Program-made: the position numbers and the translations under genes
From: Oscillospiraceae bacterium
Lineage (GTDB): Bacteria > Bacillota_A > Clostridia > Oscillospirales > JAAYXM01
NCBI GenBank assembly: GCA_017408185.1
Contig: JAFQVE010000595.1
Span: 1 to 17,069 of the forward strand
Direction: 5' to 3'
Length of the DNA: 17,069 bases
The notes under the pieces: model-generated
What the model saw: only the letters and a program-made list of their open reading frames with translations
What the model was told of the DNA's origin: nothing
Database searches by the model: none
Shown: piece by piece, positions 1,360-16,345 of the stretch
How positions within the stretch are numbered: position 1 is the first letter of the stretch
Layout of the letters: each line of letters begins with the position of its first letter

Positions 1360-2907
1360 TTATTTTACGCGATTATATGCGCTTTCGTACGCAGCAAGAA
1401 CTTCATCCACACCCATCGACTTAAGCGTCTCAACAAACTTATCAAAGCTCGAAAGCGGCTCCTGACCGAGCATGAACTTTATAAGCATTTCTTCGGTATA
1501 TGTCTTCAGTCCCGTGTTATAGGTATCAATAACCGCCTGCTCTTCATCGTTAAAATCAAGCCACAATCCCATCGGATAATACGGAAGCATATGCTCAACA
1601 ACGATATTCTCGCTTTCAAGCGTTGTTTCAGACTGTACAGCCTTTGCGGCATCCGGGTCAAGGCGGGTAAAGGAGCCGTAGAGCTGGAAGCCGTACAGTG
1701 TGTTCGGACCACTGCCTTTTTCGTCAGTTATAAACTTTTTCTCGCCGTTTACAACCTCATAGGTTTCGCCCTCTTTACCCCATGAAACAAGCTCCATTGC
1801 CTCGTCGGTATACATCCAGTCAACAAACTTTGCGGCATTTGCAATGCTGTCAGCTTTACCGGTATCCGGAATAGAAATACCTATCATCTCAATGTCGCCG
1901 CGCTCCATCATGGAAACGCCTTTTTCCGGATTTGCAACAGGCGGAGCGAATGCCTGGATTTTAAATTCCGGATTCTCGTTTTGTGCAAGATTATTATAGT
2001 GGTCGATTCTTAACTGAAGATGCGGCATAATGAACGTTCTGTCCGTAAGAACAAGCTCATCAAACGTCGAACCATTCATCGTTACGCAATCAGAAGGCAT
2101 CAGCTTTTCACTGATCATCTTAGTGTAGAAGGTCACCACCTCAAGTGCGGTATCCTCAGTTGCGCCCCAGCGCCACTCGGCGTCATCGTGGTCATAATAT
2201 GCAACCGGCTGCCACCACTTATCAAATGATGAGCCGGGCAGGTCAAACACATAGCCAAAGCTTCTTGTGCTGTAAGGATAAGAGTCCGGATACAGTTCTT
2301 TTAATGTTTTTGATACCTCGTAAATCTCGTCGAAGGTTTCAGGGGCTTTGAGTCCGTGTTTTTTGAAAATATCCTCGCGGTAGAGCCATGCGCGCATACG
2401 CGTTCTGCCCTCGCGGCCCGTTCCCGGAGTATAGTATATTTTACCGTCTGCACGCTTACGGTTTTTGACAGCAACGTCATACTCTTCCTCCGAGAGACCG
2501 GAAAGCCATGCGTTGTAGTTTGGCATATATGCCTCTAAATCCTCAAATGCGATAAGTCCCTCGCCTGCATATGGTGTATGCGCATTCATTACTTCAAATG
2601 CCATCAAATCGGGAAGCTCTTCACGTGCCGCAAACATAACCGGAAGCTTTGTTCCCATATCAGTCGCCGGGATAGCGGTAATATCAAGCGTCGCGCCCGA
2701 GCCCTCCTCCATATATTCCCACAGCTTCCAGTCCTCGCGGAAGGGCCAGCCCGAATTCGAGGGAACTACCATGGTTATAACATCATCCTTTGTAAGCGGC
2801 TCTCCTGCCCCTGTGCCGTCAAGCTGAGTCGCTCCGCCGCCTCCGCCGCACGCGCAGAGCGCAAAAAGCATAACGGTTGCGAGGGTTAAAGCGATAAGTT
2901 TTTTCAT
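1360..2907 (-). CDS. Extracellular solute-binding lipoprotein (LplA/YtcQ-like, sugar ABC transporter)
   Basis: A 515-residue substrate-binding protein of an ABC importer, of the large class that usually binds oligosaccharides. The N-terminus MKKLIALTLATVMLFALCAC is a lipoprotein signal with lipobox LCAC (lipidated Cys at residue 20), followed by a Gly-rich spacer. Family-typical stretches are ADGKIYYTPG, LYREDIFKKHGLKAPETFDE, AAKFVDWMYTDEAMELVSWG and the C-terminal region around LSSFDKFVETLKSMGVDEV. A tryptophan-rich patch (WW and WRW near residues 231-250) could stack on sugar rings. The longer start at 2916 is rejected because AAGGA (2917-2921) would abut it; ATG 2907 leaves 9 nt. That ribosome site lies in the 7-bp gap after the lyase stop codon, so the two genes are probably translationally coupled. 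No permease or ATPase gene is in the window; related proteins usually pair with LplB/YtcP-type permeases encoded nearby or elsewhere. Confidence 0.9.
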   Translation of the reverse strand: MKKLIALTLATVMLFALCACGGGGGATQLDGTGAGEPLTKDDVITMVVPSNSGWPFREDWKLWEYMEEGSGATLDITAIPATDMGTKLPVMFAAREELPDLMAFEVMNAHTPYAGEGLIAFEDLEAYMPNYNAWLSGLSEEEYDVAVKNRKRADGKIYYTPGTGREGRTRMRAWLYREDIFKKHGLKAPETFDEIYEVSKTLKELYPDSYPYSTRSFGYVFDLPGSSFDKWWQPVAYYDHDDAEWRWGATEDTALEVVTFYTKMISEKLMPSDCVTMNGSTFDELVLTDRTFIMPHLQLRIDHYNNLAQNENPEFKIQAFAPPVANPEKGVSMMERGDIEMIGISIPDTGKADSIANAAKFVDWMYTDEAMELVSWGKEGETYEVVNGEKKFITDEKGSGPNTLYGFQLYGSFTRLDPDAAKAVQSETTLESENIVVEHMLPYYPMGLWLDFNDEEQAVIDTYNTGLKTYTEEMLIKFMLGQEPLSSFDKFVETLKSMGVDEVLAAYESAYNRVK

Positions 2908-2923
2908 GTTGAACATTCCTTTC

Positions 2924-5900
2924 TTACTTTATATAATCCAGTATTCTCTTAATCAGCACCGCGACCTCGGCACGTGTGGTGTAATCAGTTGGAGCGATTT
3001 TCCCCGATTTGCCGTTTACAAGGCCGCTTGTTATAAGTGCTTCCACTGCATCCTGTGCATACTCTGCAACAGAAGTGAAGTCTCCATAATCAACATCTGC
3101 ACTTTCGAGCTCTACCCCCAGTTTTGTAAGTGCACGGTGGACTATAACCATCATATCCTGACGGGTGATAGTATTGCGTGGTGCATACTTATTATCACCT
3201 ATACCGGATATAATTCCGTTATTTCTTGCTATTGCAAGCTCTGCGGCAAAGTAATCGGATGCAGCTACGTCTGCAAAGTTCTCCGCATTTTCGCTTTCAA
3301 GCTTAAATGCACGGACAAGGAGCAGCGCAAAGTCTGCGCGGGTTATGTTCTTTGCGGGCGAGTATGTGCTTGCAGACGTGCCCTTTATTATTCCATCTGC
3401 TGCAAGAGTGTTTATCGCATCCTCTGCCCAGGCGTGGTTAGAGAGGTCTGTGAAACGGATAGTATCCGTTTCACCCGAGGCCTCGGGTGATTTTTCGGTA
3501 TTTTGTGTATCGTCCGTTCCGGTATTTTCAGAGGCAGAATCATCCGGTATCGGTGCTGCACCGCCGCCTCCGCCGCCGGAGGTGCCGGAATTGTCGGTTG
3601 ACGTGCTGCTGCCGGTCGTTCGTCCGTAAACCGTTACGGTAAAGTGAACTGTTGTTTCAAGGACACCGTCACTCGCCGTTACTGCAACGTGATTCTCTCC
3701 GCCCTGCGAGTCGTCCGGCTTCCACGTAAGCGTTTTTGTCTCCTGATTGATGCTCATTCCGCGCGGAAGCGTTGTTCCGATGAGCGTAAGCACTTTTCCG
3801 CTCATGCTCTCGGCGTTTATCGGGATAGTTACCGTGCTTCCGGCCGAAACCGTGTAATCGTCGGGCTGTTCTACCACCGGTGCCCTGCTTGTAATTGCCG
3901 ACAGCGGAATTCTCAGTGACTGCCCTTTTTCAATATTGTAAACGTATCCGCGGTCAATATCATTTGCATCAACGTAGCTTCTGATGACCGAAACCGTTCC
4001 GATATTGAGAACAACATCGTCGCCATCGTATTTTGCACTTTCAATTCTGTATGCACTGTTGTCAATTCCGTCGTTGTCTATATACACATACTTGCCCGAA
4101 AGCGCATCGGTGTCAACCGTCTGTCCTGCAGTCGGTGTGAAAACAATGCTGTTTTCCATCTTAAGCTCGTCGGTATAGCTCTTTACTGTGCCTGTATACG
4201 CTGCAAGAGCCTCTTCCTTTTCTTCGTCTGCAAACTTAAGAACCTCTCCGTCGTTTAAGTAGCTGTATAGCACCGCATCCGGGCTTACCTCTCCATCAAA
4301 GGAGATAACCCCCGCAAAGCCGCGGAAATTGATATTGCCGTCAACTATATAATCAATCTCACTGTTCGTGGAGTAAATTATATAGTCAATTCTGCCGTTT
4401 TCAAGCTCTACGCGAACTGCGCCGTAAGAGTCTCCTGTGCCCGGCTTTGTCCCTGCCTGTCTCTCCATCGGAAGCTTTTCGATGCTCTTGATATACTTAT
4501 TTCCCGCTTCATACGGCTCCAGCACCGTTGTAAAGGTGGTGTTGAGGTTTGAGCCCTTGTTTCTCACGAGCAGATATTCAAGGTTTCCTATATTTGCGTT
4601 CGAATCCGTCCGCGGCGGATATGCCATCGCAAACGTAACCTCTTCCATCGGGTCATCATTCACCATTGTAAGACGCAGGCGGATATCCCGCTTCTGCGGA
4701 AGAACCTTGTTCCAGTCTTTAACCTTAAACTCAACGGAGAAATCTTTCTCTATCGTATTGAATGTACGTATGTTTCGGAGCCATGTGTATCCGCGCGGAT
4801 ATTTTCCGTTATTGATGCCTCCCGGATCCGGACCGTATTTTACATCCGCACCGGCATATGTGCCATATTCGTTCCCAAACACATCTTCATACATTGGAGT
4901 TTCCGTCATGTCGGAAAGACCGGAAACCGCCGAAATTTCATCAGACTGGCTGTGGAAGCTGTACATATGATCATTACCGCCGTTTATGTGGAAGAAATCA
5001 ACGCCATATGAAATTTCATCGTCCACCTCGACCATAATCATTGAACGTCGATAATCGTCCGTCTCTTCATAGACATCTTTGCTGATATCCATAAGCTTAA
5101 CTCTGCCCGAGTCGTCAAAATGATGCGAGGTTCCGACATCATCGCGGACTTCCTGCTCGTTCTCGTCGACAATCACCGTGTTGTGCGAAATGGTTGTCTC
5201 TACCCACTCATATCTGTTCGGCTGGTCGCCGGTCTGCTCGGGATATCCGATATCCGGAGCAACGTTAAGACCAAACGCCGAAGCAAAGAGGTTAAGCCCG
5301 TCTTTATGCCCGTGACCGCCGCTCGCGCCAAAATAAATTGCAAAGTCGCGGTTTGTGTTCGTCTCGGTAATTGAGCTTGCCGAGTTGTGCTTTGCACCGG
5401 CGCGAAGCGCTGCGAAGCCATAGCCGGTCATCATGTCGCTTTCGAGCGCATATTCGCCGTCTTCTTCGACAATCCTCTCAATGTCCTCGGTAACCTTTTC
5501 CGGATCGTCATCGAGAATAGAGCCGCGAAGTCCCTCTGCGGTATCGCCGTTATACATATAAAGCGCGCGGGCTATATCTCTGTCGCCGGTATATCTGAAC
5601 GCAGTAAGACTTGCCTCGGGATCCATAACTATACCTCGGCTTGCAACTGCGCCTGAGTCACCGGTCTGTGTTCCGTAATATCCGCCGAGCGTAAGACGCG
5701 CCTGAGCATCAAACATATTAATAAACCTGGCGTTCTTAAACAAATCCACGCTCGGATAAAGCTCATATCCGGAAAGAAGCTCTGCAAACTCAATAAGGTT
5801 TGCAACCCAGCCGCGGTTATATCCGGGAGCATTCTCATTACCGTTACCGTCGCGGTCCACCTGCTCGATGAGATACTGCATCGTCGCGCCGCCGGTTCGC

Positions 5901-8900
5901 GGCGCCGGATTATCCGCCGTGCTCTGCGCCGTCCCCGGTTTCATTACCCATTCAAGCATTTCAGCAGTTTCGGGCAGTCGGTTCAGCGCGACCGCAGCTG
6001 CAACAACCACTGTCTGCGTCATACCGAAGTTACCGGCAAGGTCGCTCATGACCGTAGCATCGTATAGCTCAAGCAGGATATTGTCTTCAACATGCTTGCG
6101 GAGCGCACCCGGGCTGTTCTTGAGATTTACCGGAATGGGATTTCCGTTTTCATCACGCTTCCAGTGTCCGTTCTCATCCATCTCATATCTCGGAGACTTC
6201 TTTGAAAGATATTCTGCCAAATACGGGTCGTTGTAAATAGGAATAAACGCGTCATATGCACGTGCAAAATCTTTTGCAATTGCGTTTTCCCAAACAGGGT
6301 CTAAAATTTTTCCGCGGTAGCCGTCGCCTCTGAACGAGTCCCAACGCTTCCAGTTGAAGGACGGATAGAAATCGGCAACGCGGTCAAGGAGAATTGCACC
6401 TGCACGTCCGTACTTTGCATCGCCGGTATAAACAAAGGCGTCGGTTAACGTGGAGATGGCTCTTTTTATCATTTCGTATGAGCCGTGCCATAAACCCTCA
6501 TGCAGATAATATGCAATATATGTATGCTGAACAGGACCTTTCGATGTTCCGTCTGAATACCACGCAGTACCGTCGCTCTCTTTATAGTAGCTCGGATCGT
6601 ATCCCGGAAGCGTTTTGTCCTCAATAAACGGCTGGTGATAACCAAAGCCGTCGTCAACCGCCCAGCCGGTAATGCCAAGCTCCTTGTCGATATCCTTATA
6701 CATATCGTTGGTGAGATATCCGCCCGCAACGTTGTAGCCGTAAAACTCCTTCCATGCATCGTTTCTCGGGTCGTTCTTTATCCACTCTGCCGAGCCGGGC
6801 TCCGGTGCGCTGTCTATCGGACGCTCGTGCGTACACTCCTGCCCCGCCTTTACATGCTCGCAGACAAACAGCTCATGGTGCTTCTGCAGCGCCTGAGCGT
6901 AGCTCCACACTGCTCCGCTCTCGGTGATACCGAGCTCATAGAAGCTTCCAAAGTCGTTTGACGGGAAAAGACGCTTGCAGTCCGGGCACTGAATCTTCCA
7001 CGGACGGGAGAGCATATCTACGTTCCACGCATATGAACCGTATTCAAGACCGATGTTGCAGCCGCACTGACGGCAGAAGAACTTCTGCGGGTCGTATTTA
7101 TGACCTACGTGATAATATCTCGGAAGCCCTTCCGGAACCATGCGCTCATAGAGAGACTCAAGGTTCTCGACGTATTTATCCGCCTGCTGCTTTATTGCCT
7201 CTACTTCTTTTTTTGCCCAGGAGTATCGCGAGGCGTTGAGCTTTGCGTTCTCTCGCTCCTTAATCGTGTAAATCGCGGGGTTTATTGTCGAATCCCAAAC
7301 AACGCCTATCGTTACAGGCGGTATTGAAAGCTTGTCAACCCCGTCTTTATATTCTGCCGAGACCACAGGGGAAACAACAATCTTTCCGACCGCCTTACCG
7401 GTTACCGTGCCGTCCTCGGCGATGTCTGCCGCATCTGCTCCCTGCATTACATTCCACGTGATATACTTTCCGGGGATTTCAACCGTCTTTCCGCTGTTCA
7501 TTGCAAGCAAAAGCTTTATTTGCGTTCTGCCATAAATGTAAATGCTTTCATCATACGATACGGTTATGCCCTTTTGCGTATCAATTCCGGAGGTGTCCTC
7601 AACCTCAAGCTCAAAGCTTGCCGTAACCGTGATATTTTCATAAGTAATAATCGCCGTAATGGTCGCTGTTCCTTCATTTAAGGCTGTGATATTTCCGTTT
7701 TCGTCAACGGCTGCAACCGTCTTGTCGGAGGACTTGAATATTATTTCATCCAGATCTTCAAAGGAATAATCTATCACCTCATCATCACCGGAGAAAAGCG
7801 CGGGAAATGCCTTTGCCGTTGTGCCGACTTCCATTTTCGTCTCTCCGTTTTCAAGAGACAGCTCTGCACGGGCAAGCGTACTTGTGTTCGTGAAAGAAAT
7901 ATAAAGCGGATACCATGCGTCGCCGTAGCCTTTTTCTGCCGCTGTTCCGTGGACAGCCTTGAACACCACGAGATATTCCCCCGGGTTTTCAATCTGTGTT
8001 TTTCCGAAAGTCTCCGTCACGCCGGTTGTTGCTTCTGCGCGGTAAGTATCTGCCGCTCCACCGTAAAATTCGTTGTCGGTCACAAGCTTTGCCGCAAGAT
8101 TTGCTATGTTATCCTCGGTAGCCGGCATGATATAAAGCTCTACTTTCGCCGCGCGGTTACGCGAATAACCCGTTGTCGATATTTCATAATTTCCTGCTGC
8201 GGGGATTTTTACCTTAAACGCAAGATATGAATTGTCCTCTATTCCTTTCCATACAATCTGTGAAAGGCTTGCAGTTGCGCTTGGAAGTCCTATTGTCGGA
8301 TATTCATCGCTGATGTTTGAAACAGCATGGAATATCCAGTTTCTGTATTCCGTGTATTTCACAAGCTCATGAAGCTTTTCTGCAGTATCCCCCGGATATA
8401 TATCCTGCCTTAAATCAATCTTGAAGCTTAACGGATACTCAACCGAGCCTTCCTCGCCTACGCTTACCGCCACGGCGTCTGTTTCGTGGACGATGCCTCG
8501 GATACGCACCCTTGCCTTGATTTCCGCAGTACCCACACCTGCGCCTATAAGCTTCTTTCCGTCATCATCAAGCTCAATTACATTATCGGCAGTCTGGCTT
8601 ACTATTTCATAGCCTACAATCTCGCCTGCGGAAAGAAGTGTTCTGTCCCTCTGCTCAAGGCGTATAACCGGCACAAGCTCTCTGCCTATGCTTCCTATTG
8701 AAGGAGCATAGAGATATGCACTGATAATATTATAGTCTTCGCTGACGAAAATTTCCGTTTCCTTTACATATGCGCTTCCGTCAATCAGAATGAGCGTTTC
8801 AATGGTTGCGTTTCCCTCTCCGATTGCTTTAAAGGTTTTTCCGTCATCACATATTTCAAGAATATCGCGGTCGTCCTCAGCTACGCTGTGCGCGATATAT

Positions 8901-10750
8901 GCATCGCTCAGGTCAATCACGTTGTCTGCCGAGTTTTTCGCAACAACATTTGTGATGCCTGTGTATTCGCCCACGCCGATTTTCGGTTCGTCCACCGTTA
9001 CCTCTGCATTTGCAATTCCGCCGGTTCCGACAAGCGTAATCGTATTTATAAGCACGTTCGGCGTTCCCGACTTCTTTTCGCTGTCGTTGCTCTCAATTAT
9101 CATCAGATAGTCGGTATAGCCCTTTTCATAATCAAGCGAAGGCTCCGCCGTAAATGAGCCGATGTTCGTCTGCATAACCGGAGCTGCTGCACTTCCGTTG
9201 AAATCAGCCTTTGCGGCAAAGTTTTCATCGGACATATAGCTTTCGATATTGTCGCGGATGTTTGCATAGGTCATAGCCTCGTTATACGGAAGCATAAAGA
9301 TTTTTGCAAGACCGCCGTTTGAATATGTATATCCGCTTGCGTCAATCGTATATTTTCCGGGCTTCGGCACCTTGATTTTAAACGCCGCCCAATCTCCCGC
9401 ATCGCCCGAAAGACTAAGATAAAGCGAACCCTGCGCAAAAAACTTACCTGCGCTGTTCGTGTGAGATGCGGTTGCAGCAACCAACCCCCACGGGCGCATT
9501 ACGCCGTAATCCTGATAAGGGAAGCTTTCGGTAAACGTCTGCTCATTCACTTCCGGAACACCAATGCCCGTCGATGTAAGCGAATCCTCATATGCACCCG
9601 AGGTGAAAAGGTATGAATAACTGTTCACACCTGCATATCCTCCGTCGGCATATACCGTCACCTCTGCCACTGCCGACGCCGAGGTTTCGTTCAGCGTTCC
9701 CGTCACGCGGACCCTCGCTGTTCCTTCTGCCTTGGCATAGACATTTCCGTTGCCGTCGGAGACGAGAACTCCGTCCTTATCCTCGGCAATTTCGACCGTG
9801 ACCTTTCCAGTGGAACCGTCTATAACCCTATCGCCGTTTTTCCATATCACGCCGGGAACTATTTTGCTCCCGACCATGACAGGAGAAACAGACGGCTCGA
9901 TATCCGTTACCTTTACAACAGGCACAAGCTCAAAGCTGTTGATGTAAGCATCAAGACCGGCATTTGTTCCATTTTCCAGACTGATTACAAGGTAATAATT
10001 GCCCGCGTCAATGCTTACTGCACTTCCGGAAAATGCAGCCGGACTTGTATAATCCTTTGTCTGACTTTCTGTAAAAGACGCCTTTAGCAGATATGTGTAT
10101 TCATCCGGAAGAGTTCTGTTATTCTCTGTAAATGCAGGTTTTAATACATCGACAGCCCACGCCGTCGAATTACCCGGGTCGCTTTCAAAATCCCATTTTT
10201 TTGATTTGCCGTCTGCATTAATATAGCTTTTCCCATTCACTGCTTCGGAAACCAGTGCTATATGGTAATTGGCAGCCGCTCCATTAGGTGCAATATTGAT
10301 TTTAGGTATATATTCTCCGGGTTCCGGAACATTTATCTTTAACGTCAACCCATTCACGCCCGGATTAGAATTTGAAGCCTTCTGAAGCCAGCCAAAGATA
10401 CCATATTCCGTCAGGGATGGCACGTACCTTGTGTCAACCGTGTCCTTATAGAAACCGTAAGTACCGACATACGACCAATCACATCCTTCTTCTTGGTCAT
10501 CATTCCCCATTCCTTTAACAGCCAGTTCCCTGTCTACCCCTCCGAAATAAGAACTGGAATACAACTTTTCTTTGTTGCCTCTTGCTTCATCAGATGCTTT
10601 TTCTTCTTCCGTAATTTCCTCTCCCGCGCCGGAGAGAGTAAATTCATATACGAGAACTCCATCCGCGGCTCCGCCGGCTGCAAACGCAACGCTCGGAAGC
10701 ATTCCGGCAAGAAGTGCCAACGTTAAAAACATCGCCAATATTCTTTTCAT
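2924..10750 (-). CDS. Giant S-layer-anchored heparinase II/III-type polysaccharide lyase
   Basis: A 2608-residue secreted cell-surface protein. Rough layout: signal peptide 1-24 (cleavage after AFA); module M1 about 34-280, starting YEFTLSGAGEE; Ig-like (BIG2-type) domain about 281-368; divergent module M2 about 375-575; two Ig-like domains about 580-768; divergent module M3 about 771-957; two more Ig-like domains to about 1150; helical toroid of a heparinase II/III-fold lyase from about 1160. Near the toroid start are CRQCGC (C1226, C1229, C1231) and CPDC (C1255, C1258), a zinc-ribbon-like pair. The lyase beta-sandwich has GGHGHKDGLN (H1813, H1815), APDIGYPE (D1833) and SHNTVIVDE (H1856), matching the His/Asp metal-site layout of this fold. 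A putative Ig (He_PIG-like) domain spans about 2290-2375, then a Ser/Gly/Thr linker, then three SLH domains (about 2433-2608) that should hold it to secondary cell-wall polymer. Likely reaction: beta-elimination of a uronic-acid-containing polysaccharide; substrate unknown. Start supported by AAAGGAG 7 nt upstream. Confidence 0.85.
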   Translation of the reverse strand: MKRILAMFLTLALLAGMLPSVAFAAGGAADGVLVYEFTLSGAGEEITEEEKASDEARGNKEKLYSSSYFGGVDRELAVKGMGNDDQEEGCDWSYVGTYGFYKDTVDTRYVPSLTEYGIFGWLQKASNSNPGVNGLTLKINVPEPGEYIPKINIAPNGAAANYHIALVSEAVNGKSYINADGKSKKWDFESDPGNSTAWAVDVLKPAFTENNRTLPDEYTYLLKASFTESQTKDYTSPAAFSGSAVSIDAGNYYLVISLENGTNAGLDAYINSFELVPVVKVTDIEPSVSPVMVGSKIVPGVIWKNGDRVIDGSTGKVTVEIAEDKDGVLVSDGNGNVYAKAEGTARVRVTGTLNETSASAVAEVTVYADGGYAGVNSYSYLFTSGAYEDSLTSTGIGVPEVNEQTFTESFPYQDYGVMRPWGLVAATASHTNSAGKFFAQGSLYLSLSGDAGDWAAFKIKVPKPGKYTIDASGYTYSNGGLAKIFMLPYNEAMTYANIRDNIESYMSDENFAAKADFNGSAAAPVMQTNIGSFTAEPSLDYEKGYTDYLMIIESNDSEKKSGTPNVLINTITLVGTGGIANAEVTVDEPKIGVGEYTGITNVVAKNSADNVIDLSDAYIAHSVAEDDRDILEICDDGKTFKAIGEGNATIETLILIDGSAYVKETEIFVSEDYNIISAYLYAPSIGSIGRELVPVIRLEQRDRTLLSAGEIVGYEIVSQTADNVIELDDDGKKLIGAGVGTAEIKARVRIRGIVHETDAVAVSVGEEGSVEYPLSFKIDLRQDIYPGDTAEKLHELVKYTEYRNWIFHAVSNISDEYPTIGLPSATASLSQIVWKGIEDNSYLAFKVKIPAAGNYEISTTGYSRNRAAKVELYIMPATEDNIANLAAKLVTDNEFYGGAADTYRAEATTGVTETFGKTQIENPGEYLVVFKAVHGTAAEKGYGDAWYPLYISFTNTSTLARAELSLENGETKMEVGTTAKAFPALFSGDDEVIDYSFEDLDEIIFKSSDKTVAAVDENGNITALNEGTATITAIITYENITVTASFELEVEDTSGIDTQKGITVSYDESIYIYGRTQIKLLLAMNSGKTVEIPGKYITWNVMQGADAADIAEDGTVTGKAVGKIVVSPVVSAEYKDGVDKLSIPPVTIGVVWDSTINPAIYTIKERENAKLNASRYSWAKKEVEAIKQQADKYVENLESLYERMVPEGLPRYYHVGHKYDPQKFFCRQCGCNIGLEYGSYAWNVDMLSRPWKIQCPDCKRLFPSNDFGSFYELGITESGAVWSYAQALQKHHELFVCEHVKAGQECTHERPIDSAPEPGSAEWIKNDPRNDAWKEFYGYNVAGGYLTNDMYKDIDKELGITGWAVDDGFGYHQPFIEDKTLPGYDPSYYKESDGTAWYSDGTSKGPVQHTYIAYYLHEGLWHGSYEMIKRAISTLTDAFVYTGDAKYGRAGAILLDRVADFYPSFNWKRWDSFRGDGYRGKILDPVWENAIAKDFARAYDAFIPIYNDPYLAEYLSKKSPRYEMDENGHWKRDENGNPIPVNLKNSPGALRKHVEDNILLELYDATVMSDLAGNFGMTQTVVVAAAVALNRLPETAEMLEWVMKPGTAQSTADNPAPRTGGATMQYLIEQVDRDGNGNENAPGYNRGWVANLIEFAELLSGYELYPSVDLFKNARFINMFDAQARLTLGGYYGTQTGDSGAVASRGIVMDPEASLTAFRYTGDRDIARALYMYNGDTAEGLRGSILDDDPEKVTEDIERIVEEDGEYALESDMMTGYGFAALRAGAKHNSASSITETNTNRDFAIYFGASGGHGHKDGLNLFASAFGLNVAPDIGYPEQTGDQPNRYEWVETTISHNTVIVDENEQEVRDDVGTSHHFDDSGRVKLMDISKDVYEETDDYRRSMIMVEVDDEISYGVDFFHINGGNDHMYSFHSQSDEISAVSGLSDMTETPMYEDVFGNEYGTYAGADVKYGPDPGGINNGKYPRGYTWLRNIRTFNTIEKDFSVEFKVKDWNKVLPQKRDIRLRLTMVNDDPMEEVTFAMAYPPRTDSNANIGNLEYLLVRNKGSNLNTTFTTVLEPYEAGNKYIKSIEKLPMERQAGTKPGTGDSYGAVRVELENGRIDYIIYSTNSEIDYIVDGNINFRGFAGVISFDGEVSPDAVLYSYLNDGEVLKFADEEKEEALAAYTGTVKSYTDELKMENSIVFTPTAGQTVDTDALSGKYVYIDNDGIDNSAYRIESAKYDGDDVVLNIGTVSVIRSYVDANDIDRGYVYNIEKGQSLRIPLSAITSRAPVVEQPDDYTVSAGSTVTIPINAESMSGKVLTLIGTTLPRGMSINQETKTLTWKPDDSQGGENHVAVTASDGVLETTVHFTVTVYGRTTGSSTSTDNSGTSGGGGGGAAPIPDDSASENTGTDDTQNTEKSPEASGETDTIRFTDLSNHAWAEDAINTLAADGIIKGTSASTYSPAKNITRADFALLLVRAFKLESENAENFADVAASDYFAAELAIARNNGIISGIGDNKYAPRNTITRQDMMVIVHRALTKLGVELESADVDYGDFTSVAEYAQDAVEALITSGLVNGKSGKIAPTDYTTRAEVAVLIKRILDYIK
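7877..8438 (-). repeat. Protein module copy M3 (divergent), in lyase
   Basis: About residues 771-957 of the lyase. The best anchor is AFKVKIPAAGNYEISTTGY followed by a strand ending in YIMPA, which aligns with the same place in M2 (AFKIKVPKPGKYTIDASGY, FMLPY). The copy ends with a PGEYLVVF strand, like the AGxYYL strand of the other copies. It lacks the opening GAGEE signature, so membership is inferred from the internal pattern. Confidence 0.5.
9028..9622 (-). repeat. Protein module copy M2 (divergent), in lyase
   Basis: About residues 375-575 of the lyase, between Ig-like domains. Opens with YSYLFTSGAYED (compare YEFTLSGAGEE), has the mid-module pattern AFKIKVPKPGKYTIDASGY, and closes with VLINTITLVG, matching the PYINSFEL ending of the other copies. 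Probably a beta-sandwich binding domain. Confidence 0.55.
9912..10651 (-). repeat. Protein module copy M1, N-terminus of lyase
   Basis: About residues 34-280 of the lyase. Nearly the same opening as the neighbouring 824-residue protein (YEFTLSGAGEE.TEEEKASD), then GMGND, WSYVG, a Tyr/Trp-rich stretch around YGIFGWLQKAS, the VPEPGEYIPKI strand, and the closing AGNYYLVI ... INSFELVPV. Similarity extends to DNA: near 10600-10637 and 13164-13201 the two genes share almost identical sequence, including CCTCTCCCGCGCCGGAGAG. This points to duplication or gene conversion. Confidence 0.8.
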
Positions 10751-10804
10751 ACACTATCTCCTTTCACCGTATTTCAAATGTGTATATGTGTTCTGCTTTT
10801 ATTA

Positions 10805-10830
10805 TAGCGGAGAGAACGACCTCTCCGCTA
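10805..10830 (-). promoter_or_regulatory. Perfect intergenic stem-loop without U-tract
   Basis: TAGCGGAGAG and CTCTCCGCTA form a perfect 10-bp stem with a 6-nt loop, 8 nt after the stop codon of the 824-residue protein gene. The minus-strand sequence after it is TAATAAAAG, so a U-tract is missing. It may be an mRNA-stabilising or processing element that lets the first gene be expressed more highly than the lyase behind it. A weak terminator is possible. Confidence 0.65.
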
Positions 10831-10838
10831 CAGGTAAA

Positions 10839-13313
10839 TTATTCTGCGTTTGATACTGTTATCTCGTTTCCGGTGATAAGCGAATATGTTTCGTCTGTGT
10901 TCTTGACAATCGCATAACCCTTATATTTCCCGTTTTTGTCTGCAACAACACTGAACTGGCTTCCCGGTGCAGTCATGGCAATTCTGTTATCACCAAACAT
11001 AATGCCTTTTTCTACAACCTTGTTGTCAAAGCCGACAAACTCTGCCATAATTCCCTTTTCGCTTCCTACATCAAAGCTATCTGTGATTATCTTCATTACA
11101 ACAGAAACAAATGAGTGTTCTTCATATTCTGCCGTAACCGTGCAGGTTTCCCATGCTTTGAAGGTATACTTCTTATCAATGCTTACTATCTCGGAGGTAC
11201 CGTCAAGGTTTGTCTTTTTCCAGCACTTGAACGGATTGCCACTTTCATCTGCAACATCTGCTGTACATGTGACCGAGGTGCCGTAAGGAACAGTTTTATC
11301 TTTACCGTTGACCTTTACGGTAACATTATCCGGCTGCGTTTTGTTGTCGTACTCTGCAACATAGATGTGTTTTTCACCGTACGGCTTCCATTCCGAAAAA
11401 CTGCCATAGCCTGCCATTGAGAGTTCCGTAGGCTTTTCACCTATTGCGATAAGCTGACCGTTTGCGTTGTAATACTCGGCATTTTCTTCTGTAGGACCTT
11501 CGCTGTCATATACTGCTATGAGATAATTTGTTCCACTATCGTCCGGAACATAGTTTGTAATAACGTTTGTCCACGAGACAATTCTCTTTTTAGCGGTAAG
11601 TCCCTTTGCCCAGTAGAGGAAGCTCTCTCCGGCACGGTTCTGTTCCGGTGCAGTGATGTCGTAGTAGCCTTTTTCGTTCTTTTCTACAGTTATGCTCTCG
11701 CCGTCAGAAGTAAACGATGCCACTGTCGGAGCCGTGTATTCGTAGTCGTCCTGTTTATTAACAGTAAACGCTGCATCAAGAGCAGTGTCAAGCTCTCCGA
11801 CCTTTTCAATCTCGAAGCTGTTGATGTAGGGCATGTATTTGTTGCTTCCGTCTTTTGCTATAAGAAGATAATATTCTCCCGCTTTAAGTGCAACCGTATC
11901 TGTTCCCGACAATGATACAACACTATCCGTTGTCACTTTATTTGTGTTTACAGATTTGAGTGTTCCAGAAAGAGCAAGCGTAATCTCACTGCGCAAATCC
12001 TTTCCGCCTGTCAGACTTGCTTGTAAAGTAGTTAGTGCATAGTAAACACTATCGCTTATTGTGACCAGATCGCTTACCGTATCGCAAAAATCATACGGGT
12101 AATCATTTGTATGGAGTCTTCCGTCTATGGCTTTATCTATAATACATGCATATACTGTTCCATCAGCCATACACGGCAAGTAATTCAACGCAGTTGTATA
12201 TTCTCCATCGGCAGGTACATTAATTTCAAAAACGATGCCATCCGAACCAAGCGTTGCGTGGCCATCCGCTGAATACCACCAAAAGCCATAGTTCGACAAC
12301 TGGCTGGAATAAGTATCAGTTGCCGTGTAAAGTCCTCTTTCCCCGATGTAGCTCCACTCGCTGGTTCCCATTCCTTTTTCTATTAATTTTGTATTTGATA
12401 CATCTGTTTCTCCGTAAAGCACGCTGTTATAACGATCAGCTGTCTCTCCGGCACCTGCGAGCGTAAATTCATACTTTGTTACCGGAAGCTTCTCAAGCTC
12501 AAAGCTGTGGATGTAAGGCAAATATCGGTTTGTAGCGCCTGCTATAAACAGATAATACGTTCCTGCATCGAGCGTTATCGGCTCGCCCGCCAGTGCTACA
12601 GCATCGCTTGATGTCGGAACAGTTTTCTGTTTTGTCACTTCACCCGAGAGCAAAAATGTCATTTCTGCGGGCTTACTCTCTCCGGCTTTCAGGCTATTAG
12701 CAAGGTAGCCTGTGCTTGTGTTCGCTGTACCATTTGTGTCGACTGCTGTGGTTGTTTCAAAATTGTATGCCCAACTATTGCCGCTGTATTGTTTTCCGTT
12801 TATCGCATCATCGATAATATATGCGTGAAGCGTTCCTTCGGATTCATACGGCAGATATTTGATCGTCGGGATATATTTCCCATTTTCGGGGATTACAATC
12901 TTAAACGTAACGCCGTAGGAACCTAACGATCCGATACTGGAAGAATTTCCGTACCACCAAAATCCATCTGGTGTGAGCTGGTTCTTATATCTCAGATCCG
13001 TCGAGCCATAGGTTCCACTTGCGCCGGCAAAGCTCCAGTCATCGCCGGCTTCTGTACTATCGTTTCCCATTCCGAATACTATTGCTCTTTTCTCCATCCC
13101 AAGAACGCTGTTATAATAGTTTTTTTCCGAATTATTAGCTATTGAATTATCCGAAGCCTTTTCTTCTTCCGTAACCTCCTCTCCCGCGCCGGAGAGGGTG
13201 AATTCATATTTATAAACCGTATTTCCTGTTTCTGCATCTGCCGCTGCGAAAGCAGCCGGCAGAAGCGCGATAACCATTGCGATTGCCAGGATAATTGATA
13301 ATAACTTCTTCAT
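10839..13313 (-). CDS. Secreted modular protein with two lyase-shared modules (function unknown)
   Basis: An 824-residue exported protein that I do not recognise as a named family. It has a signal peptide (residues 1-23, cleavage after AFA). Two tandem modules of about 230-240 residues follow (about 34-273 and 275-500); each opens with YEFTL(S/A)GAGE and ends with PYI(H/N)SFE(L/I)EK. The C-terminal 320 residues contain short beta repeats such as GESFLYWAKG, FSEWKPYGEKHIYVAEYD and FKCWKKTN...CTVTAEYEE, which resemble divergent InlB/Listeria-Bacteroides-type repeats. There is no catalytic motif, SLH domain, LPXTG or lipobox, so it is probably released or held non-covalently. It is the first gene of the operon, 88 bp before the lyase that carries the same module. 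A role as a soluble or matrix polysaccharide-binding partner of the lyase is inference. AAGGAG lies 11 nt before the ATG. Confidence 0.85.
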   Translation of the reverse strand: MKKLLSIILAIAMVIALLPAAFAAADAETGNTVYKYEFTLSGAGEEVTEEEKASDNSIANNSEKNYYNSVLGMEKRAIVFGMGNDSTEAGDDWSFAGASGTYGSTDLRYKNQLTPDGFWWYGNSSSIGSLGSYGVTFKIVIPENGKYIPTIKYLPYESEGTLHAYIIDDAINGKQYSGNSWAYNFETTTAVDTNGTANTSTGYLANSLKAGESKPAEMTFLLSGEVTKQKTVPTSSDAVALAGEPITLDAGTYYLFIAGATNRYLPYIHSFELEKLPVTKYEFTLAGAGETADRYNSVLYGETDVSNTKLIEKGMGTSEWSYIGERGLYTATDTYSSQLSNYGFWWYSADGHATLGSDGIVFEINVPADGEYTTALNYLPCMADGTVYACIIDKAIDGRLHTNDYPYDFCDTVSDLVTISDSVYYALTTLQASLTGGKDLRSEITLALSGTLKSVNTNKVTTDSVVSLSGTDTVALKAGEYYLLIAKDGSNKYMPYINSFEIEKVGELDTALDAAFTVNKQDDYEYTAPTVASFTSDGESITVEKNEKGYYDITAPEQNRAGESFLYWAKGLTAKKRIVSWTNVITNYVPDDSGTNYLIAVYDSEGPTEENAEYYNANGQLIAIGEKPTELSMAGYGSFSEWKPYGEKHIYVAEYDNKTQPDNVTVKVNGKDKTVPYGTSVTCTADVADESGNPFKCWKKTNLDGTSEIVSIDKKYTFKAWETCTVTAEYEEHSFVSVVMKIITDSFDVGSEKGIMAEFVGFDNKVVEKGIMFGDNRIAMTAPGSQFSVVADKNGKYKGYAIVKNTDETYSLITGNEITVSNAE
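11808..12482 (-). repeat. Protein module copy R2, in 824-aa secreted protein
   Basis: About residues 275-500. Opens KYEFTLAGAGE, has GMG, WSYIGERGLYTATDTY, GFWWYS, VPADGEYTTALNYLP and closes AGEYYLLIA ... PYINSFEIEK. It is shorter at the N-terminal acidic stretch than R1. The conserved Trp/Tyr positions (WSY, GFWWY) are what a glycan-binding face would need. Confidence 0.8.
12485..13214 (-). repeat. Protein module copy R1, in 824-aa secreted protein
   Basis: About residues 34-273. Opens YEFTLSGAGEEVTEEEKASD, then GMGND, WSFAG, a TDLRY segment, GFWWYG, IPENGKYIPTIKYLPY and closing AGTYYLFIA ... PYIHSFELEK. Closest relative in the window is M1 of the lyase. Confidence 0.8.
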
Positions 13314-13472: not shown

Positions 13473-14438
13473 TTGGACAGAGTAATTCCGAAAATAATCT
13501 CGCCTAAACTCCACTATTCTGACATATTCCCTTTAAATATCCGCATTTTGCTCAGGCGCACTCCTTTCGGTAATGGGCTTCACTGCCACGACTGCACTGA
13601 GCTGTGGTACTTGCTAAGCGGCAAAGCCGTACAGAGAATCAATGATAAAACATTTATTCAAACTCCGGGAACCTGTGTTACGGTTCCGCCTTTTGTTCTG
13701 CATGATCTCGATACTTCCGTTTCTTCGGATACGCCGCTTTTTGTGCAAATAAATATTTACGACCACTATATACGCCGATGCGGACATGATTTCTGTTCAT
13801 ATTGTGATGGTAAAGTATATTTTAACGGAGCCTTTCTGCCTGTATTTCAGAAATTCTCATCTCAAAAGATGGATATTGCAAGTGGTCTTATGCATAAAAT
13901 AAGTGATGAATTCAATTTGGACGCAACTATTGATTTTGATAAAATACTCAGTCTGTTCGTGAGCTTTCTCGAGCTTCTGGAAGGAGATAAATCCACCCTC
14001 AGGCTAACCCCTTCCATGCTGAATCGCATAAACTCCATCTTGGACGCTGCAGTATATTTAGACAAGCATTACTCAGAAAATATTACAATTGACCACCTAT
14101 GCCGGATTTCAAACATGTCAAAATCCCGCTTTTCAGAATACTTCAAGCAAATCACAGGTGTTTCAGCAATGTATTATCTTAAATGTCTCAGATTGATAAA
14201 GGCGCGCAAGCTTTTTCTGCTGAGAGGAAAAGACCTTGCTTCAGCCGCAAGAGAGACAGGTTTTTATGACACCGCTCATCTTTGCCATGCTTTCAAGGAA
14301 CATTTTGGAGAAACTTTGTCAGAACAAAAAAGGAACATTCAGGTAAAAGAACAGCTAATTGACAGAGAAATCCGCCCATACTATTCAAAGCTCCGAAAGC
14401 ACCGGGAAATTTCAAAAAGTCAGGAGCAAGGAACATAA
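13473..14438 (+). CDS. AraC-family transcriptional regulator with cupin sensor domain
   Basis: A 321-residue DNA-binding regulator, divergent from the lyase operon and its likely controller. N-terminal cupin sensor about 20-115 contains a complete cupin motif 1: H37-C-H39-x3-E43-x6-G50. C-terminal AraC double helix-turn-helix about 190-290: first HTH around ITIDHLCRISNMSKSRFSEYF, second with the signature GFYDTAHLCHAFKEHFGETL. The TTG start at 13473 is chosen because GGGAGGTG lies 5 nt upstream and no closer ATG keeps the cupin domain. Extra cysteines (C38, C41, C103, C108, C111) beside the cupin histidines are unusual and could bind metal. A sugar ligand is typical for such regulators next to carbohydrate genes, but here it is inferred. 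Confidence 0.9.
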   Translation: MDRVIPKIISPKLHYSDIFPLNIRILLRRTPFGNGLHCHDCTELWYLLSGKAVQRINDKTFIQTPGTCVTVPPFVLHDLDTSVSSDTPLFVQINIYDHYIRRCGHDFCSYCDGKVYFNGAFLPVFQKFSSQKMDIASGLMHKISDEFNLDATIDFDKILSLFVSFLELLEGDKSTLRLTPSMLNRINSILDAAVYLDKHYSENITIDHLCRISNMSKSRFSEYFKQITGVSAMYYLKCLRLIKARKLFLLRGKDLASAARETGFYDTAHLCHAFKEHFGETLSEQKRNIQVKEQLIDREIRPYYSKLRKHREISKSQEQGT

Positions 14439-14683: not shown

Positions 14684-15976
14684 TTACAGTTCTAAATCAA
14701 AGAATTTTTCAATTCTTTCTGCATTCTTCAGTGACAAACCGGCTTCTGTGGCAAAGTCAGTCCATTTAGATATAGCTGACCTTACCCGCTCAATATACTT
14801 CTCTGCTTCAGCCTTCTTGATACCGGCTTTCTCGGCAACCTTTATAAAATCGTCTGTCGTGATTTCATCTGCCTTCCCGTTTATAAGCATCTGATGTGCA
14901 TTTACCCATGTGCTGCTTTTGCTGTACGAGAAGGTCATATCATATGCCGGAGATAAACGCCATACACCCTTTTTATCCATCAGGAAAGTGATATTCTTGG
15001 TATGATCGTCATAGTTCTTTGCATATTCATTAAAAAGCATTCTTTTGTACAACTGCACAAAATCAATATGCGGCAGCTTCAACTGCCTCATAACACCGAA
15101 TGCGTCTTCATAAGAATACATTCTCGGAGAATTAAAATCCATATGCGCAATAGCACATAAGCTCTGCATATGAAGTTTTTCTCCTTTAATGCCTTTGCGG
15201 TCAAATCTTTTTGTCATAAAATGCGCTCTGCCGTTTTCTTTAAATAACCGACATTCGCTCATTTTTATGCCTGCAGCCTTAGCCATAAGGTAATATGCAT
15301 ATTCAATTCTTGTATATTCCTTATTATCGGGTTCTTTATCCTTGTCTTTATTGTTTGCAATATCGTCAAATTTCAGCAGCCAATATTCAAATCCTTTGCC
15401 GGCGCTTATTTGTCCCGAACGCACAACATTTGTTTCCGGGTTCAATGCAATAAGCGTTTTCGCTCTTGCACCGCCAACAGATGAACTCCCCTGCATTAAC
15501 TGTGCTATCATGTTGTCGTCATACTTTATATTCAGATTTTCTCTTTCAGACAAGATATCCGATGCAAGCTTTGTAAGTGCATCAATATCAATTTCATCGT
15601 TTACATCTATGATATTGGTTGAGGGTTCATATTCCAGCGCACCCATACCTCTTTGACCTGTATAACACAATTTCTCAAGAGTAGTTAAACTGTCTTCCGT
15701 TCTTCCTTGATTTTCCAGATAACGTTTAATAACAATATTACCGAATTTATCAGGCAGAGAATCTGCAAGCAATCCAGGCAAACCGCTAAAGGTTATTTCC
15801 GGCAAAGTAGGGAACGAATAGGTTATATCAGATAACGGCATTCTAAGCGGCGAAACCTCAATACCGCTCGGAATAAAATTCTCATCATATTGAAAGCCTA
15901 TCAACCCGTTATCCTGTCTGTGGAGATAGCCGATTGTTGTCCCCCACATTTTTACTTTAACCGTTCTTATATCCAT
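14684..15976 (-). CDS. hipA: HipA-type Ser/Thr kinase toxin
   Basis: A 430-residue type II toxin of the HipA kinase family, close in length to E. coli HipA (440). In E. coli the kinase phosphorylates glutamyl-tRNA synthetase and induces dormancy; the target here is unknown. N-terminal HipA_N/couple domain about 5-110. The Gly-rich loop SSVGGARAKT has S166 at the place of the E. coli autophosphorylated serine. Catalytic loop NYDDHTKN gives D323 and N328; SPAYDM gives D346, the second magnesium ligand. All key residues are present, so it should be active. It starts 12 bp after hipB, with GAGAGG 8 nt before the ATG. Base composition is AT-richer than the lyase operon, in keeping with a mobile accessory module. 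Confidence 0.93.
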   Translation of the reverse strand: MDIRTVKVKMWGTTIGYLHRQDNGLIGFQYDENFIPSGIEVSPLRMPLSDITYSFPTLPEITFSGLPGLLADSLPDKFGNIVIKRYLENQGRTEDSLTTLEKLCYTGQRGMGALEYEPSTNIIDVNDEIDIDALTKLASDILSERENLNIKYDDNMIAQLMQGSSSVGGARAKTLIALNPETNVVRSGQISAGKGFEYWLLKFDDIANNKDKDKEPDNKEYTRIEYAYYLMAKAAGIKMSECRLFKENGRAHFMTKRFDRKGIKGEKLHMQSLCAIAHMDFNSPRMYSYEDAFGVMRQLKLPHIDFVQLYKRMLFNEYAKNYDDHTKNITFLMDKKGVWRLSPAYDMTFSYSKSSTWVNAHQMLINGKADEITTDDFIKVAEKAGIKKAEAEKYIERVRSAISKWTDFATEAGLSLKNAERIEKFFDLEL

Positions 15977-15988
15977 AATCTATACCTC

Positions 15989-16330
15989 TCATTTATCTTC
16001 TTCCCAAATCCATTTTGATTTCAGATTAGCAGCATTTGATTTAACTCGCTGCCTTGGAGCCTTTTTCTCAAATATCGCCTTGAAATCCGGCTGTGCTTCA
16101 GGAATTAGTATATCCATATTCTGTGTTAACCCCAAGCCGTTCAGGATTTTTATATAATTTGAAAATATCGAATCGTCACCGTTCTCAATACGAGCTACAG
16201 TACTGGCAGAAATTCCGCATTTATGTGCGAGTTCCGATTGCGTAATATTTAATGATATTCGATACTGTTTAATCCTGGCACCAAGTTCTTTTATAATAGC
16301 CTGTGCGCCTTCATTTCCGCTTATTGTCAT
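15989..16330 (-). CDS. hipB: HipB-type antitoxin, Xre-family HTH
   Basis: A 113-residue antitoxin and autorepressor. Helix-turn-helix about residues 29-51 (ITQSELAHKCGISASTVARI), followed by IENGDDSIFSNYIKILNGLG, the usual Xre continuation. The basic tail (residues 91-113) ends in KWIWEEDK; in E. coli HipB a C-terminal tail with a Trp docks into HipA, so this Trp-rich end probably does the same. ATG 16330 is preferred, with GGGTGA upstream; an in-frame TTG at 16342 would add four residues (MGDR) but has no separate ribosome site. It should neutralise HipA and repress the operon by binding the palindromes upstream. Confidence 0.92.
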   Translation of the reverse strand: MTISGNEGAQAIIKELGARIKQYRISLNITQSELAHKCGISASTVARIENGDDSIFSNYIKILNGLGLTQNMDILIPEAQPDFKAIFEKKAPRQRVKSNAANLKSKWIWEEDK

Positions 16331-16345
16331 CCTATCACCCAATTT

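Follow-up and report, generated by a model that had tools for sequence, protein, structure and literature searches.

Divergent modules of a predicted CBM6/35/84-like fold in a giant SLH-bearing putative lyase and its companion protein from a probable relative of gut Oscillospiraceae

The stretch of DNA analysed here, referred to as the window, comprises 17,069 nucleotides of contig JAFQVE010000595.1 from an Oscillospiraceae bacterium (assembly GCA_017408185.1) and carries a gene cassette built around a very large heparinase II/III-like lyase. The lyase gene is accompanied by the genes for a companion protein and an extracellular solute-binding protein as well as by a divergent AraC-type regulator gene, whose product may control the cassette (Table 1). 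A sequence-only reading had proposed that the companion and the lyase share a repeated secreted module in about five copies, designated here as R1 and R2 in the companion and as M1, M2 and M3 in the lyase. Both reading frames are indeed present on the minus strand, but only the lyase deserves the term giant, which had been applied to both proteins; the proposed end of the module region at 7877 agrees with where M3 ends in the model (about 7853). The Pfam scan of the lyase revealed three stretches of S-layer homology (SLH) domains, which presumably anchor the protein to the cell wall, together with Big_2, He_PIG and a heparinase II/III C-terminal domain, and the companion returned zero matches at E<=1. 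The C-terminal domain of the companion (10839-11789, minus; also at L074-L092), the window copy of which is likewise devoid of a Pfam match, has a pattern like VEVGILFG...HGQF...ARGYMIY and marks companions across loci.

Table 1. Position of genes, domains and modules in the window. CBM, carbohydrate-binding module.
Feature	Position	Strand	Basis or remark
AraC-type regulator, divergent	13473..14438	plus	Pfam HTH_18 and AraC_binding
Companion protein gene, 824 residues	10839..13313	minus	Signal-peptide-like start (by eye), then R1, R2 and a C-terminal part common to other companions
Module R1 of the companion, residues 31-279	12477..13223	minus	BLASTP, motifs, nine-row R profile and AlphaFold model; CBM6-like fold
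Module R2 of the companion, residues 277-508	11790..12485	minus	37% identity to R1 and profile match
Giant lyase gene, 2608 residues	2924..10750	minus	Pfam scan
Module M1 of the giant lyase, residues 31-280, R type	9911..10660	minus	40% identity to R1; in 12-row R clade, support 98/95
Module M2 of the giant lyase, residues 369-576	9023..9646	minus	
Module M3 of the giant lyase, residues 768-966	7853..8449	minus	
Heparinase II/III-like catalytic region, lyase residues 1230-2250	4001..7063	minus	Pfam Hepar_II_III_C, best stretch 1811-1936
S-layer homology domains, three stretches, lyase residues 2432-2600	2951..3457	minus	Pfam SLH, E 2e-30; S-layer protein Sap among the PDB matches
Extracellular solute-binding protein (SBP_bac_1), after the lyase	1360..2916	minus	Pfam, E 6e-14
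Amidohydrolase	379-1266	minus	

The five copies are homologous. In BLASTP comparisons, R1 is 40% identical to M1 (E 4e-45) and 37% identical to R2 (E 1e-41), and R2 and M1 share 32% identity (E 6e-24). These three copies also have in common the motifs listed in the sequence-only reading, save that the strand given as VPxxGxY reads IPENGKY in R1 and thus lacks the VP. M2 and M3 are similar to one another (33% identity over 36 residues, E 3e-6; hhalign probability 97.8%), and their similarity to the R type is weak in direct tests. A hidden Markov model (HMM) profile of R1, R2 and M1, run against a set of eight proteins, matched M2 with E 0.056 and M3 with E 0.62, a nine-row R profile gave E 0.17 and 0.56, respectively, and hhalign yielded 23-60% for R versus M2 and 5-12% for R versus M3, as compared to 0.06-0.53% for control domains. 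Iterative searches with jackhmmer, started from R1, M2 or M3, each recovered all five copies from a set of 176 sequences composed of homologous proteins and open frames of other loci; when started from R1, M2 was reached with E 3e-31 and M3 with E 2e-18, the latter match being limited to query residues 46-200. As this set was enriched for the module family (inclusion threshold E 1e-3), the E-values differ from those of an unbiased search, and decoys and structures therefore serve as safeguards: with each sequence also added in reversed form, zero decoys were listed. The kinship of M2 and M3 with the R type is thus settled because intermediates link them in the iterative search. Chance resemblance, against which the pairwise and profile tests alone are weak, is ruled out by the iterative searches with decoys.

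Across 43 modules, a set that includes R1, R2, M1 and M2 and leaves out M3, a single residue is invariant, namely a tryptophan (W93 of the 824-residue protein), and Y36, F38, W93 and Y147 are kept in 41-43 of the 43 rows; M3 has a tryptophan aligned with that of M2. M2 and M3 had been thought to keep the middle and closing strands only. Both strands are there, but M2 in addition possesses the opening Y-x-F strand, and the W block is present in M2 (PWG) as well as in M3 (NWI).

The iterative searches together with structure models of R1, M2 and M3 place all five copies in one beta-sandwich family that most resembles carbohydrate-binding modules (CBMs). The AlphaFold model of R1 (predicted local distance difference test score 87.3, predicted template modelling score 0.87) has a CBM6-like fold, and the models of R1, M2 and M3 all resemble CBM-type sandwiches of the CBM6/35-like kind, with the same nearest structures. 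A different fold for M2 and M3, which would have contradicted the proposed family, was not observed in the structure models, and these models also rule out a new fold. Foldseek searches with a 646-residue model spanning M2 and M3 returned mostly proteins with multiple immunoglobulin (Ig) domains at low template modelling scores and were informative only when the model was split by domain.

The suggestion that the modules belong to no existing Pfam or CBM family was borne out in part. The five window copies have zero matches to CBM families in Pfam or NCBIfam (Pfam scan of both proteins at E<=1). However, the family is not isolated from known CBMs: its predicted fold is of the CBM6/35/84 type, and two relatives, P0020 (residues 381-431) and P0097 (residues 632-689), exceed the Pfam cut-off for CBM_35 (30.1 and 30.9 bits versus 28) inside modules detected by the family profile. 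These two proteins were scanned because, among 120 listed lyase relatives, PF16990 is named in the precomputed domains of this pair alone; P0020 has a sub-threshold CBM_6 match within another module. Among the 43 modules, three match CBM_35 at E<=1 (best E 7e-4). The modelled window modules share the beta-sandwich fold of CBM6 and CBM35 (PF03422, PF16990), with 2cdo and 2w3j among the structural neighbours, but they extend over ~200-250 residues, as compared to 138 in 2cdo. Top structural neighbours of R1 include the xanthan-binding MiXBM (7ehg), which we take to be the Microbacterium module of PMC10049358, and a module belonging to a xanthan lyase of Paenibacillus (6f2p), whose CBM family is likewise our own reading; the same two are the top neighbours of M3. 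Both also serve enzymes acting on acidic polysaccharide, but identities in the structural alignments are 11-16%, and the kinship is thus shown by structure and not by sequence. Searches of PDB sequences with module profiles found no CBM, the best match being an adhesin repeat domain (E 0.074). With regard to CBM84, 6f2p is a fold neighbour, and no such chain was matched by the module profile in the PDB. CBM84 is the related family named in PMC10049358.

The catalytic region of the giant lyase scores above the cut-off of PF07940 (heparinase II/III-like; 31.8 bits versus 24), and a 12-row profile of this region matched alginate lyases of polysaccharide lyase (PL) family 17 in the PDB, foremost 9irq (E 3.5e-11), followed by 7bjt and 7bm6 (E 7e-6) and 4nei, 4ok4 and 4ojz (E 6e-5). 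This match is partial, its best stretch with 9irq covering profile positions 390-539 of 902. At E<=10, the profile also picked up a CRP-type activator and WhiB1, two matches that appear fortuitous, and none of the PL35 structures named in PMC12088678 was among the matches. According to PMC12088678, an Asn/Tyr/His triplet is common to the toroid-fold lyases of families PL8, 12, 15, 17, 21, 23, 35 and 39; the same paper describes PL35 enzymes that act on hyaluronan, chondroitin sulfate and heparan sulfate and, in one instance, on alginate. In the window lyase, N1574, Y1644 and H1813 occur in the same order as this triplet, the residue alignment to a solved enzyme being confined to the surroundings of H1813; these three residues, along with H1856 and further positions, do not vary across the 12 rows of the profile. 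The protein differs from PL17 and other heparinase II/III-like lyases in its giant size, its SLH domains and its Ig and CBM-like modules.

Two related genomes contain this type of lyase in large numbers. A scan of genome contigs with one peptide pattern returned a single locus, L001, in an Oscillospiraceae metagenome-assembled genome from goat rectum, which encodes a lyase of 3339 residues with two R-type modules. Behind this lyase lie two frames (L001:18664-20294) resembling, by eye, CBM-type modules with Ig-like repeats. The genome containing L001 (G001, 2.7 Mb) has 65 lyase-query matches in 60 open frames of 962-3815 residues, which, counted from stop to stop, total 428 kb or 16% of its DNA, and at least 145 module matches at E<=1e-3, many of them partial (150 of 257 candidates scored). 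A second genome (G005, 3.2 Mb) has 88 lyase matches in 74 frames, 73 of which sum to 512 kb, again 16%. Frames at contig ends may be pieces of one gene, so that the true number of genes is somewhat smaller. Searches at E<=1e-10 found the lyase in 9 of 59 relatives, and those at E<=1e-20 in 11 of 295 genomes belonging to the order; the R profile (A3) had matches in 7 of 98 relatives. A protein-database search with the lyase gave at least 388 matching proteins at E<=1e-20 (7988 candidates scored). In a set of 121 giant relatives (P0005-P0125), 91 carry one or more modules at E<=1e-3, amounting to 252 modules, and clear R-type modules (>60 bits) were seen in 9 of 125 proteins, a count that includes the window companion and four profile seeds. 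Other architectures exist within the lyase family: P0042, a relative of 4066 residues, lists PF13306 and PF13855 (leucine-rich repeats) and no SLH entry, and G091 encodes four tandem compact heparinase-like lyases of 1068-1091 residues with no module detected (L093:4305-17150), possibly an ancestral or minimal form.

The cassette recurs as well. At 19 loci hand-picked around high-scoring giants of G005, a protein with the companion C-terminal domain is present in 13, and a solute-binding protein like that of the window and an AraC relative in 10 each; modules are found on 14 of the 19 giants and on the companion in 3 of the 13 companion-bearing loci. In G001, the companion-type frame G001:C95:6972-7580, which lies upstream of a giant, is broken by one TAA, reflecting either a decayed copy or an assembly error.

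To trace how the modules moved, a tree was calculated from 29 hand-chosen modules. The M2 copies of five lyases, chosen for having M2 and M3, form one clade (83/91) and the M3 copies another (100/100), and the inner order of both clades is identical, indicating that these modules were inherited in place. P0005 is the closest relative of the window lyase among the matches listed (77% identity over the lyase region; 1879 bits versus 1431 for the next), but its first module groups with R1 of the window companion (100/100, 79% identity) and not with M1 of the window lyase (40%). Thus, the first module was exchanged between the lyase and companion gene types, the tree being compatible with either direction. 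P0005 and the companion-type protein P0003 are both listed with a longest contig of 65,201 bases and are probably located together. The starts of R1 and M1 in the window share a stretch of 78 nucleotides with 82% identity, which includes an insertion, TEEEKASD, that is absent from the first module of P0005 and from R1 of P0003; this pattern suggests a later partial conversion between the companion and lyase genes.

When the 65 G001 modules were assigned to their best matches, 41 fell to another gene of the same genome, 14 to the same gene and 10 elsewhere, a comparison that tilts toward the same genome as the 'elsewhere' set was smaller. The median identity to the best module of the same genome is 32%, indicating that most copies are old. 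The family had been thought to have spread by duplication within this locus. This is contradicted by the 145 module matches in G001, by the position-specific M2 and M3 clades shared with other lyases and by the exchange of R-type modules between gene types; local duplication as the sole origin is ruled out by the G001 module count together with the module tree. Spread by mobile elements was also discarded, the companion being without relative in the phage or plasmid records searched, and viral contigs contained no module relative at the sensitivity of that scan.

We consider it likely that the five segments are divergent members of the CBM6/35/84-like sandwiches that bind polysaccharide beside a wall-anchored lyase, in one of many paralogous cassettes. 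The beta-sandwich would have been enlarged by insertions to ~200-250 residues, and the modules would most likely bind polysaccharide and keep it at the cell surface, held beside the putative PL17-related lyase; M1-M3 are fused to this lyase, and the SLH domains would fix it to the wall. The companion with R1 and R2 may act as a non-catalytic surface binder, implying a division of labour within a cassette composed of AraC regulator, companion, giant lyase and solute-binding protein. The many paralogous cassettes would probably vary in their glycan target via their module sets, the likeliest targets being acidic, uronate-bearing glycans such as glycosaminoglycans or alginate-like polymers. The analysis shows the homology of the five copies, their predicted fold, the protein architecture, the recurrence of the cassette and its amplification in related genomes, and sugar binding, the ligand, lyase activity and the division of labour are inferred. 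A bolder idea, to which we assign somewhat less than an even chance, is that a gut Oscillospiraceae lineage has assembled a combinatorial toolkit for glycan breakdown. Each genome would encode some 60-70 large lyases, mostly anchored to the wall and taking up ~16% of the DNA, each lyase would carry its own set of modules from a private, divergent CBM family, and swaps between lyase and companion would re-deal binding specificity with catalysis being kept.

Alternatively, the modules could be structural spacers or an S-layer-like scaffold, in which the CBM fold is kept, sugar binding is lost and the enzyme is projected from the wall. The alternation of modules and Ig-like Big_2 domains in a protein with SLH domains would suit such a role, as would the single invariant residue among the 43 modules and the stretch between M2 and M3, which matches S-layer proteins such as EA1, Sap and SbsC. 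However, we regard it as unlikely given the strong conservation of the four aromatic residues, although these may be core residues, the nearest folds, which are binders, and the fixed places of M2 and M3 in the five lyases of the tree, which were selected for having them. Even less probable is a role of the modules in protein binding or in adhesion to host or neighbouring cells, with diversification by shuffling as in surface antigens: Eph-receptor ligand-binding domains are among the fold neighbours, and the modules were exchanged between genes and exist in many divergent copies, but fusion to a lyase, the adjoining solute-binding proteins and the CBM_35 matches indicate polysaccharide use. 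Finally, we give very little credence to the notion that M2 and M3 are unrelated beta-sandwiches whose likeness to the R type is limited to the G-x-Y strand motif. The weak direct comparisons (HMM E 0.05-0.6; hhalign 5-12% for R versus M3) would be in line with it, but it conflicts with the recovery of all five copies from R1, M2 or M3 without decoys, with the identical nearest structures and with the much lower hhalign scores of the control domains.

In polysaccharide utilisation loci and cellulosomes, a regulator, a surface binder, an enzyme and a binding protein adjoin one another. The window cassette also places these functions together, but a locus of its type has one giant SLH-bearing polypeptide, and Pfam matched neither a SusC/D pair nor a dockerin in any protein scanned. 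A similar lyase richness to that of G001 and G005 was reported for MAG052, an uncultivated clostridial genome among 322 genomes from the Tibetan pig gut, which encodes 50 polysaccharide lyases, including 39 of family PL35 (PMC7785962). This is probably the same phenomenon seen as family counts; the passages considered give family names and counts and do not mention the giant architecture or the modules. Lyase richness alone had already been noted in one genome. The broader result here is an expansion, restricted to one lineage, of large lyases that bear SLH domains and are decorated with modules; no description of the module family or of its lyase-companion exchange was found in the open-licence papers searched, judged mostly by title and opening of the abstract. 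A large module family without a Pfam entry of its own sits on the enzymes in which a gut lineage appears to invest most at its surface. Should the modules bind uronate-bearing glycans, the published lyase-rich clostridial genomes (PMC7785962) would gain a targeting mechanism, and the R-type swap between lyase and companion would represent a natural experiment in which binding specificity evolves apart from catalysis.

As for the remainder of the window, an Rfam scan returned zero matches. An apparent HipBA toxin-antitoxin pair adjoins the cassette (14684-16342, minus), composed of a HipA-like protein of 430 residues and, before it, a helix-turn-helix protein of 117 residues. At the window edge (2-370, minus), a partial frame of 123 residues resembles, by eye, the start of an M55 D-aminopeptidase.
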